NCBI GenBank assembly: GCA_031262525.1
Contig: JAISHM010000001.1
Location: 1-44,323 of the forward strand
DNA: 44,323 nucleotides
Origin: Rickettsiales bacterium
Lineage (GTDB): Bacteria; Pseudomonadota; Alphaproteobacteria; Rs-D84
Direction: 5' to 3'
Both the position numbers and the translations under genes were made by a program. Shown here piece after piece: positions 171 to 24,601 of this stretch. The notes below the pieces were generated by a model. The model did not search any database and was not told the origin of the DNA. It was given only the letters and a program-made list of their open reading frames with translations. Numbering within the stretch: position 1 is the stretch's first letter; each line of letters starts with the position of its first letter.

Positions 171-190
171 TTGTCCTTTATAAAGGACAA
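171..190. repeat. 20-bp perfect palindrome TTGTCCTTTATAAAGGACAA (copy 1)
   Basis: Exact self-reverse-complement; identical cores at 7265, 29178 and 36156. Confidence 0.95.
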
Positions 191-195
191 CCTAT

Positions 196-240
196 CCCCG
201 CCCCCACGGGGCGGGGGTTTTATACCGAGTGTATAAGAAT
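196..240. repeat. Partial copy of composite intergenic element (CCCCGCCCC-CAC-GGGGCGGGG hairpin plus TTTTATACCGAGT)
   Basis: Shares the GC hairpin and TTTTATACCGAGT with the element at 7126-7287. Confidence 0.7.
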
Positions 241-500
241 ACTAGGGGCGAAACGAACCGCAAGCAGGCATCCACAGACACTCTCAAAAAATAAATTTAT
301 GTGAGATGATTGCGCCGCGGTTTGATTTGCGAAGTGTATAAGAATACTAGGGGCGAAACGAACCGCAAGCAGATACCCACAGACACTCTCAAAAAATAAA
401 TTTATGTGAGATGATTGCGCCGCGGTTTGATTTGCGAAGTGTATAAGAATACTAGGGGCGAAACGAACCGCAAGCAGATACCCACAGAAATTTATTTTTT
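229..500. repeat. Tandem array (period 105 bp, ~2.5 units) of a palindromic element; last complete unit 391-500
   Basis: GTGTATAAGAATACTAGGGGCGAAACGAACCGCAAGCAG starts at 229, 334 and 439. AAAAAATAAATTTATGTGAG occurs at 286 and 391. Unit 391-500 ends with the exact inverted repeat AAATTTATTTTTT. Confidence 0.93.
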
Positions 501-1173
501 AGAAGCCTTTTGGTGTTTTCATCTTAAACTTTGCGATGCGTTTATTCAGTGCGCTGATTACATCATCTGTAATATCCAGATTTTTCACATCGTTGCCAAT
601 CCGCGCAAAGCGTCCGTCAATCACCAATGATAAATTTTTCTTTTCAATAATCCGTTCAATAATTGGGTCCAGATTTGAAGATTGAATTTGATTTAATGCG
701 TCTTGGAACGATGCCTCTATCGCGCCCGCGCGTGTTGTTAAATCCTGTTGCAATTTTGCAACCTTTTGTTGATATTCAATCGCGCGGCGTTGCAACGCTT
801 CACGTGATAAAACATCTTGGGACTTTTCAATTTCAACTTTTTCTTTTTCCAATTCTTTTTGACGACGCGTCAATTCATCACGCAATTTAGTTTCATACGA
901 ATCGCGTTGTTTCCGCAAATCAGTCAAAACCTTTGATTCAGACTGAATTTTATCCATTCGCACGACCGCGATATTCAAATCAGATGCCCGCGCAGCATCA
1001 GCCGTAACATCAGATACAGCCGCCCCCACAGATGTGTATCCGCCCTGCATCGCGCTGATTCCCCAGAATCCTAATGCTGCCACCACAACCACAATCGCCG
1101 CAACAATTCCAATTTTTTTATAGTTGCGCAATGCCGTTGGCAACACTGATTTATTTATTTTTTTATTTACCAT
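499..1173 (-). CDS. OmpH/Skp-family periplasmic chaperone-like protein with N-terminal TM anchor
   Basis: N-terminal TM, long coiled coil (RQKELEKEKVEIEKSQDVLSREALQRRAIEYQQKVAKLQQDL), then IIEKKNLSLVIDG typical of OmpH. Confidence 0.75.
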   Translation of the reverse strand: MVNKKINKSVLPTALRNYKKIGIVAAIVVVVAALGFWGISAMQGGYTSVGAAVSDVTADAARASDLNIAVVRMDKIQSESKVLTDLRKQRDSYETKLRDELTRRQKELEKEKVEIEKSQDVLSREALQRRAIEYQQKVAKLQQDLTTRAGAIEASFQDALNQIQSSNLDPIIERIIEKKNLSLVIDGRFARIGNDVKNLDITDDVISALNKRIAKFKMKTPKGF

Positions 1174-7125: not shown

Positions 7126-7287
7126 CGTCGGCGTTTATTTATCGTTTAGTTTTATACTCGGTATAAAACTCCCCGCCCGAACTCGGTCTAAATTCCCCGC
7201 CCCATGGGGCGGGGTGCGGACGAAGTCCGCGGGGCGGGGGAATCAGAACAAGATAAAAGTAAGTTTGTCCTTTATAAAGGACAACAA
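7126..7287. repeat. Composite GC-palindrome intergenic element (orientation 1)
   Basis: GGGCGGGGAATT...ACTCGGTATAAAAC...GAACTCGGTCTAAATTCCCCGCCCCATGGGGCGGGGTGCGGAC...TTGTCCTTTATAAAGGACAAC. The same block order is seen as the reverse complement at 36154-36370. Confidence 0.85.
7265..7284. repeat. TTGTCCTTTATAAAGGACAA palindrome (copy 2)
   Basis: Exact copy. Confidence 0.95.
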
Positions 7288-9302: not shown

Positions 9303-11789
9303 TTACCCTGCGACTGGCAACCATTCCCATGAATCGCCCCCCGTGCTGGACAAGACGCAATTCAGCACCCCGCCCGTAAAACAAGATGATGGTGGTGTTG
9401 GCAGATTTGCATCTGTTCCCGCCGGTCCCTGTGGTCCGGTCGCACCTGTTGCGCCAGTGTCACCCTTTGGTCCGGTCGCGCCAGTTTCACCCTGAATACC
9501 TTGGATACCCTGCTCACCTTGTAATCCTTGCAAACCTTGTGGGCCGGTTGCACCCGTTGCGCCAGTGTCGCCCTTTAATGATGCAATCCATTCGGGCAAT
9601 GTCCCTGAAAATCCGGATAATTCGTATGCTGACAGCCCCGCCGCGCCGGTATCGCCTTTGACACCCTGGGCACCAGTGTCGCCTTTTAATGATGCAATCC
9701 ATTCTTCCACGGAACCTGTATAGCCAGACAATTCATACGCGCTCTTTCCATCTGCGCCCGCCGCGCCAGCCACCCCTTGGATACCTTGTAAACCCTGTTC
9801 GCCCTGGGGTCCTGTTGCACCTGTTGCGCCAGTGTCGCCCTTTGGACCCGCCGCACCTGTTTCACCCTGGATACCTTGGATACCCTGCGGACCCTGTGGC
9901 CCTGTTTCACCCTGAATACCCTGAACACCCTGGGCACCAATCAAAGATTCAAGCCATTCTTCAACTTCGCCAGTATATCCGTTTGCTTGTGCTAACTCAA
10001 ACGCAGAAAGTCCAACGCCAGTATCTCCCTTTGGCCCTGTTGCACCTGTCGCGCCTGTATCACCCTTTGGACCCGCTACACCCTGGATACCTTGTTCTCC
10101 TTGTGGTCCGGTCGCACCAATTAAACCTTGGGGTCCTTGTGGTCCGGTTTCACCCTGGATACCTTGTAATCCTTGTTCGCCTTGCAGTCCTTGTAATCCT
10201 TGTGGCCCAGTCGCACCTGTTGCGCCTGTATCACCCTTTGGACCCGCCGCACCTGTTTCACCCTGGATACCTTGTTCGCCTTGTGGTCCTGTTGCACCTG
10301 TCGCGCCTGGTAATCCTTGTGGTCCCTGGATACCCTGAACCCCCTGGGCACCAATCAAAGATTCAAGCCATTCTTCAACTTCGCCAGTATATCCGTTTGC
10401 TTGTGCTATCTCGAATGCTGAAAGTCCTGTGCCTGTATCACCCTTTGGACCCTGCTCGCCCTGAGGGCCGGTCGCACCAGTTAAACCTTGGATACCTTGT
10501 TCGCCTTGCAGTCCTTGTAATCCTTGTGGCCCTGTTGCACCTGTTGCGCCTGTATCACCCTTTGGACCTGCTACGCCCTGGATACCTTGTTCGCCCTGGG
10601 GTCCTGTTGCACCGGTTAAACCTTGGGGTCCTTGTGGTCCGGTTTCACCCTGGATACCTTGCAGTCCTTGTAATCCTTGTTCACCCTGTGGGCCTGCCGG
10701 ACCTGTTAAACCCTGTTCGCCCTGCGGACCAGTTACACCCTGAATACCTTGTTCGCCTTGTTCGCCTTGCAACGATGCAATCCATTCTACCAATGTGCCT
10801 GTATAACCAGACAACTGATAAGCGCTTTGTCCATCTGCGCCTGCTAGACCTTGCAATCCTTGTGGTCCTTGCGGTCCTGTATCACCTTGAATACCTTGGA
10901 TACCTTGCAATCCTTGTTCACCCTGTAATCCTTGCTCGCCTTGTGGTCCTGTTGCGCCTTGGACACCCTGGACACCTTGGGGACCAACCAACGAATCCAA
11001 CCATTCTAATTCATCGCCCTCAAATCCTGCGACTTTCGCAACTTCGAACGCGGTAAGACCATCTGCGCCCGCCGCACCCGCTGCGCCTGCTGGCCCTTGT
11101 GGTCCTGTTGCACCAGTTAAACCTTGCAATCCTTGCGGACCTGCGGGACCTGTTAAACCTTGCTCGCCTTGTGGACCAGTTGCACCCTGAATACCTTGTG
11201 GACCCTGTGCACCTGTTGCGCCTTGGATACCCTGGATACCTTGGGGACCAACCAACGAATCCAACCATTCTAATTCATCGCCCTCAAATCCTGCGACTTT
11301 CGCAACTTCAAACGCGGTAAGGCCATCGGCACCCGTCGCCCCCGTTGCCCCTGTCGCCCCCGTTGCCCCTGTCGCGCCCGTTGCGCCTGGACCAATTGCG
11401 TTTATAAGGGATTCAACCGCCGCCACCGATGGATACGCCGTATCACTGCCCGTGGCCGCCGCAACACCAGCCACACCAACTTTATTAGACGAAGATTCAA
11501 AACCACTGACATCTGGGATACTGGCCTCTACCGCCGCAATATCTGTATAAATATCTTCCACCGCTGTGGCGATTGTTGCCACCTGGGTATCCAGACTGAT
11601 AACCGCATCCGCAGGATTTGTATCATTCGCAACATAGGTTCCAGTCTTATATGTATCTGGGTCACCAACGCGGTCATTAAATGTGCCACTGCTGACCAAG
11701 CCGCCAACCGGCAAAAGGTCTGCCCGTGCGGTGCTTATCGCGCCGACCGAAATTATTGTTATCAAAGATACACGTATCAGTTTTTTCAT
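9303..11789 (-). CDS. Collagen-like (Gly-X-Y) surface protein
   Basis: Signal peptide, then hundreds of residues of GPQG/GATGATG/GEQG triplets with seven intercalated SA[YF]E[LIV]...G[FY].G...EW[LI].SL modules. Confidence 0.93.
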
Positions 11790-24231: not shown

Positions 24232-24263
24232 CAAAAAAACGGGGCAATGCCCCGTTTTTTTTT
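24232..24263 (+). terminator. Rho-independent terminator of infA
   Basis: AAAAAAACGGGGCAATGCCCCGTTTTTTTTT. Confidence 0.9.
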
Positions 24264-24265
24264 AT

Positions 24266-24373
24266 AAAAATAATTTTATGTGGGACAGATGCAATGTTTT
24301 CGGCGACCCGACGTGTATAAGAATACACGAGGGTCAGCAAAAGCGAGCAGATGCCCACAGAAATTTATTTTTT
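24266..24373. repeat. ~108-bp palindromic element, homologous in architecture to 391-500
   Basis: AAAAATAATTTTATGTGGG...GACCCGACGTGTAT-AAGA-ATACACGAGGGTC...CCCACAGAAATTTATTTTTT. Same termini and apex as 391-500, with different but still complementary internal stem. Confidence 0.9.
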
Positions 24374-24601
24374 TACATTTGCGTCGATGAATTTAACCGC
24401 ATCGCCAACCGTTTTGATTTTTTCCGCTGCATCGTCTGGGATTGTGATATTGAATTTTTGTTCCAACGCCATAACAAATTCAACAGTGTCCAAACTATCC
24501 GCGCCCAAATCCGTTGTAAATTCGGATTCTGGTTTTACATCTTCGGCCTTTACACCTAATTGTTCTACGATTATTTCTTTGACTGAATCAAAAGTGCTCA
24601 T
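24365..24601 (-). CDS. acpP: Acyl carrier protein
   Basis: [61 protein letters not shown]. Confidence 0.97.

Follow-up and report, generated by a model that had tools for sequence, protein, structure and literature searches.

Two palindromes at the 3' ends of minus-strand genes in a Rickettsiales genome form part of a family of hairpin elements of about 105 bases that is real, broad and, as it appears, not previously described. Copies of the family are dispersed, present or absent at orthologous gene ends, placed on the stop-codon side of genes in one orientation, and built on a common hairpin anatomy. We lean towards a non-autonomous mobile DNA element of ~105 bp, defined by its structure, of which the two palindromes would be copies and whose hairpin would be read as single-stranded DNA by a recombinase.

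Two full copies and a tandem array

The window, i.e. the whole stretch of DNA analysed, covers 44,323 nucleotides of contig JAISHM010000001.1 (GenBank assembly GCA_031262525.1). Both palindromes are present in it, at 391-500 and 24266-24373, with the termini given for them in the preliminary description, and their folding lies far above that of dinucleotide shuffles (z = -6.6 and -8.3, respectively). The first had been listed on its own; it is a real copy (minus strand, covariance model score 100.5 bits) but not an isolated one, being the terminal unit of a 2.5-unit tandem array that spans 228-500 with a period of 105. The array lies at the 3' end of an OmpH-like gene (499-1173, minus strand; Pfam PF03938), the 5' arm of the full copy (488-500) starting at the stop codon of this gene and the 3' arm occupying 391-408. 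The second unit (286-390, minus strand) consists of an element at 286-383, in which 98 nt are identical to 391-488, and of a 7-nt linker, CACTCTC (384-390), that stands in place of the 5' arm. The half unit (228-285, minus strand) holds the half nearer the gene, as far as the apex (228-278), together with the linker (279-285), and is fused to a GC-rich hairpin, CCCCGCCCC..GGGGCGGGG, with a TCGGTATAAAA repeat (187-229, minus strand); the same fusion recurs at C19:19863 and C4:69087.

In the other full copy (24266-24373, minus strand; 94.6 bits), the arm at 24365-24373 is made of the last three codons, AAA AAA TAA, of acpP (24365-24601, minus strand; Pfam PF00550), and an ordinary intrinsic terminator of this gene (24233-24261, minus strand) comes immediately after the element. 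The acpP stop codon had been placed inside the terminal repeat, and indeed the whole Lys-Lys-stop end lies within the arm. That the right terminus falls at a minus-strand stop codon holds for both loci, although the OmpH-like stop codon (499-501) overlaps the element by only 2 nt. On the window minus strand, which is the sense strand of the adjacent gene, the unit has the form AAAAAATAAATTTCTGTGGG-TATCTGCTTGCGG...GTATTCTTATAC...CCGCGGCGCAATCA-TCTCACATAAATTTATTTTTT.

Distribution of the family

DNA search and the covariance model identified at least seven full copies in the window's own genome, further copies being located at C19:11752-11964 (two in tandem), C4:68923-69030 (with a half copy), C19:19863 (a half copy) and C13:24634, and additional ones occur in the relatives G032 and G002. 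The prediction that a covariance-model scan of related genomes would reveal many 3'-terminal copies was borne out: the model, built from nine copies, matched 107 of the 143 genomes that share the window's taxonomic family (order Rs-D84; Candidatus Enterousia with its relatives), and 12 of the 14 genera in that family have the element. When 191 genomes were drawn from the order, all 121 carriers listed fell in this family. Outside it, carriers were confined to one genus of another order, from one other family of the class; its two representatives, G287 and G391, gave 20 and 25 matches, respectively, some of which are possibly one copy seen on both strands; 299 genomes drawn from the phylum included no carrier beyond the window's family and this genus. 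Scoring in these large searches was restricted to the best first-look candidates, so that the copy numbers are approximate. A pattern scan of genomes likewise pointed to Candidatus Enterousia and to alphaproteobacterial genomes from rumen, gut and termite.

Enterousia has been placed in Rs-D84, an order of gut bacteria whose genomes reach about 1 Mb at most (PMC12306168), and the assignment of the window's own family to Rs-D84 is inferred from this placement; palindromes or repeats are not mentioned in that account of Rs-D84 genomes. Within the genus, G064, G081, G118 and G128 have many copies, and the well-covered genomes G010, G028 and G075 gave none. A literature search, with most subscription journals outside its reach, found no description of the hairpin family or of repeats of the order, and Rfam gave no match on the elements at the gathering threshold in the window or at E up to 0.5 at 8 loci.

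Hairpin anatomy and covariation

Among 69 aligned copies, 94.8% of pair cells held standard pairs, against 71% in shuffled alignments and 35-52% when partners were slid. Double changes were observed in 26 of the 30 pairs, amounting to 472 double-change cells versus 151 in shuffles, while one-sided changes were rare among stem pairs. The compensatory changes foreseen for additional copies were therefore found, and with them the proposal that the hairpin is kept rather than the primary sequence gains firm ground. The stem is more than 90% Watson-Crick per position, most positions accommodate three or four types of pair, and both the outer arms and the inner stem vary freely in sequence yet remain complementary.

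The stem is interrupted at fixed places by mismatches, which on the sense strand are nearly always of the pyrimidine-pyrimidine kind, chiefly UC/CU tandems; isolated mismatches include 137 pyrimidine-pyrimidine versus 20 purine-purine ones. An apical motif, CTCATGTA...TACACTACG, is conserved across copies, and the apex CTCATGTA...TACACT(A/T)CG is common even to G287, whose stems are otherwise unrelated. Copies are found in tandem and as halves, and G391 carries an array of different hairpins (C73, locus L284) in which two units combine near-identical outer arms with different inner stems, suggesting that stem segments are exchangeable between units.

Placement at gene ends

Position was assessed by searching for a co-oriented open frame of at least 100 codons ending between -13 and +17 of the element start. 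Of 127 copies, 93 have such a gene end at their 5' arm, mostly at +2 to +5, compared with 13 of 127 in the mirror-image test at the other end and 5% at random positions (p = 8e-26). By its design this test passes over short genes (acpP among them) and the second units of arrays, and it probably underestimates the stop-adjacent fraction. The element has a single orientation relative to the upstream gene and lies between its stop codon and the downstream DNA, whether terminator or next gene; some copies precede a co-directional gene (ung) by only a few bases. The genes that host the element are single-copy and dispersed.

Filled and empty alleles

Element-free alleles had been expected in relatives, and they occur both at yebC and at the gene before ung. 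At yebC, the element stands right after the TAA in 11 of the 29 Enterousia alleles with a readable end, several of the element-bearing alleles having unrelated inner stems, while element-free alleles run directly into a terminator or into ruvC (TAATAATGCG); the tree requires at least seven changes at this 3' end. On the yebC 3' side, loci L231, L236 and L239 show a full element and, after it, a partial one in which pairing between the two halves has deteriorated, and in L240 (sister species G090) the 3' half of the partial copy of L231 sits in an intact element.

In the gene upstream of ung, the insertion point precedes the native stop by a few codons, and the protein of several species thereby acquires a new tail (KLISMDACL...). 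This tail is encoded by the 5' arm and core of the element (loci L033, L034, L035, L043, L055 and L174, from several Enterousia species). The native tail is intact in empty alleles, a scar is left in G385, and native-looking sequence resumes beyond the insert in G185; at least six changes are required on the tree, and no target-site duplication beyond 2 nt is recognisable at the site. The element clearly behaves as a unit, and part of its patchiness may reflect loss or recombination.

At acpP, some relatives without the element also end in Lys-Lys-stop, so that the coding end is probably native. This locus had suggested that the arms consist of the host gene's 3' end and an inverted copy of it, an idea that the ung site does not support: there the arms match the family consensus, and in G185 native-looking sequence lies past the insert.

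Pairing at the DNA or RNA level

If RNA folding were under selection, G-U pairs would be expected to be common and A-C rare. The element stems contained 37 G-T and 50 A-C among 2418 cells, whereas tRNA acceptor stems at the same loci contained 14 G-U and no A-C among 182, a contrast whose p value (4e-5) is indicative only because cells from related copies are not independent. Wobble is as rare as A-C in the elements, unlike in tRNA, which points towards pairing being kept at the DNA level. With DNA parameters, the antisense strand was predicted to be the more stable in 103 of 112 copies and in 16 of 16 in G287, because the conserved mismatches become G-A pairs there, a bias that depends on how the energy model scores G-A mismatches. 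Both results lend indirect support to the view that the relevant hairpin would be DNA, formed by the gene-antisense strand. Complementarity could also owe something to repair-like copying between the arms at replication, but such copying would not maintain the fixed mismatches. The palindromic family at gene 3' ends proposed in the preliminary description is supported, although that description had overlooked that the first copy ends a tandem array, that the orientation is fixed and that mismatches are conserved, as well as this sign of DNA-level pairing.

A proposed mobile element and alternative explanations

In the mechanism that we favour, the hairpin would form on single-stranded DNA, preferably on the gene-antisense strand, where its mismatches are purine-purine (G-A), and a host or helper recombinase would recognise its shape rather than its sequence and copy or insert the element. 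Copies would be retained chiefly in the short space directly after a stop codon, presumably owing to the high coding capacity and the loss of insertions elsewhere, and their one-way orientation would arise either from strand-specific insertion or from selection on mRNA. Several points weigh against such mobility: transposition is inferred from alleles, with no duplication of more than 2 nt at ung; neither of the two enzyme families searched (Y1 transposases and tyrosine recombinases) yielded an enzyme; losses and recombination could account for part of the patchiness; and a fixed gene-relative orientation is equally expected from an RNA function. A bolder version, according to which the elements form a new class of mobile DNA defined almost wholly by shape (mismatch ladder and apical motif on single-stranded DNA), served by an undiscovered recombinase, attC-like but solitary, and seeding the 3' ends of core genes across a bacterial family, is put forward tentatively and strikes us as doubtful.

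The fixed sense orientation and stop-codon adjacency, together with an apical motif conserved across two orders, would also suit RNA devices, namely 3'-untranslated hairpins that shield the end of the upstream mRNA, serve as RNase III substrates or delay ribosomes reaching the stop codon, and that have been duplicated and selected for such a role; E. coli REPs less than 15 nt from a stop codon have been reported to stall ribosomes (PMC12306157). We consider this account rather unlikely, given that G-U is as rare as A-C, unlike in tRNA stems at the same loci, that the conserved sense-strand mismatches are of the pyrimidine-pyrimidine kind, that the antisense strand is predicted to be more stable, and that many orthologous genes do without the element. 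Long intrinsic transcription terminators would share the gene 3'-end location, and the A-rich 5' arm and T-rich 3' arm resemble a hairpin followed by U residues. Yet the T-rich tract is itself base-paired, the stem is broken by conserved mismatches, an ordinary terminator often follows the element (at acpP and at some yebC copies, as in G073 and G063), and the copies just upstream of ung precede a co-directional gene, all of which makes terminators improbable.

The remaining candidates, integron attC sites and REP elements moved by a RAYT (Y1) transposase, are very improbable as literal identities, despite the likenesses of both. Like the elements described here, attC sites (e.g. VCR) are folded hairpins with variable stems, conserved unpaired or mismatched positions, bottom-strand folding and a fixed orientation at gene 3' ends close to stop codons (PMC2727003); in our copies the antisense strand is predicted to be favoured and the mismatch ladder is conserved. 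However, the attC boxes R'' (RYYYAAC) and R' (GTTRRRY), both or even one, were found within 30 nt of the ends in 0 of 127 copies, and the hosts are dispersed core-genome genes rather than cassette arrays. No integron integrase is indicated in the well-covered carriers G064, G128 and G001, which have only two PF00589 matches each, presumably XerC/XerD; extra tyrosine recombinases exist in some genomes (G074, G000) and are absent from several carriers. REP, BIME and REPIN sequences are likewise dispersed palindromes, often near stop codons at gene 3' ends and sometimes in tandem, but REPs measure 20-40 nt and bear a GTAG or CGTC tag (PMC3733652), whereas the present elements are ~105 nt long with no GTAG, CGTC or GGAG in the first 8 nt of either strand. 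Moreover, ~73% of the copies lie at a stop codon; for E. coli REPs, the share found no more than 15 nt away is only ~11% (PMC12306157). The Y1 transposase (TnpA_REP, PF01797) was detected in 0 of 14 genomes, carriers included, the same search being positive in 5 control genomes. The attC site is the nearest working analogue, and the mobile element that we favour is best read as resembling an attC in behaviour without being one.

Relation to other palindromic repeats

The complementary arms, acting as terminal inverted repeats, and the existence of empty and filled alleles are traits of MITEs; no autonomous parent element was identified in the two enzyme families searched (Y1 and tyrosine recombinases). 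The enterobacterial ERIC/RU-1 to RU-3 and the Neisseria NEMIS/Correia repeats are non-coding palindromic mobile repeats of 100-170 bp, located in transcribed intergenic DNA, which can add codons to proteins and keep family consensus termini. The present elements share their palindromic, MITE-like character and the ability to add codons, but differ in that arms and inner stem vary, only pairing and mismatch motifs being kept, and in their stop adjacency and single orientation.

Rickettsia palindromic elements are palindromic inserts within ORFs that can be translated as part of the host protein. The likeness to these and to Wolbachia elements noted in the preliminary description holds as a concept only, on the basis of their description: a palindromic insert in small alphaproteobacterial genomes, translatable in the gene before ung. 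Instead of lying within ORFs, most copies are non-coding and situated at or after a stop codon, a conserved coding tail being contributed by some of them.

Significance

Mobility of the elements would extend structure-recognised mobile DNA to uncultured, genome-reduced gut bacteria, where the REP-moving enzyme family is absent from 14 genomes. Should the DNA-level reading be true, the question becomes which enzyme reads a shape whose sequence may change, and the several hundred natural hairpins offer a set for learning the rules of recognition. The placement at stop codons and the added protein tails are relevant to gene annotation and to 3'-end biology in carrier genomes.

Other features of the window

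A second short repeat, ACTCGGTATAAAA(C)YCCCCGC, of ~24 nt and sometimes in tandem, occurs beside GC-rich hairpins at 7156-7202, at 205-230 and on C4 near 69087, and is fused in three instances to a half element, at the end where this is broken. At the contig start (52-117, minus strand), a tRNA-Gln-like gene has a weak Rfam match (32 bits) and was not called by ARAGORN; unrelated GC-rich sequence stands in place of its T-arm side, which may be a contig-end artefact. Finally, repeats of 36, 45 and 90 nt form long runs at 9844-11389 within a large minus-strand ORF (9303-11789), which looks like a collagen-like repeat protein.
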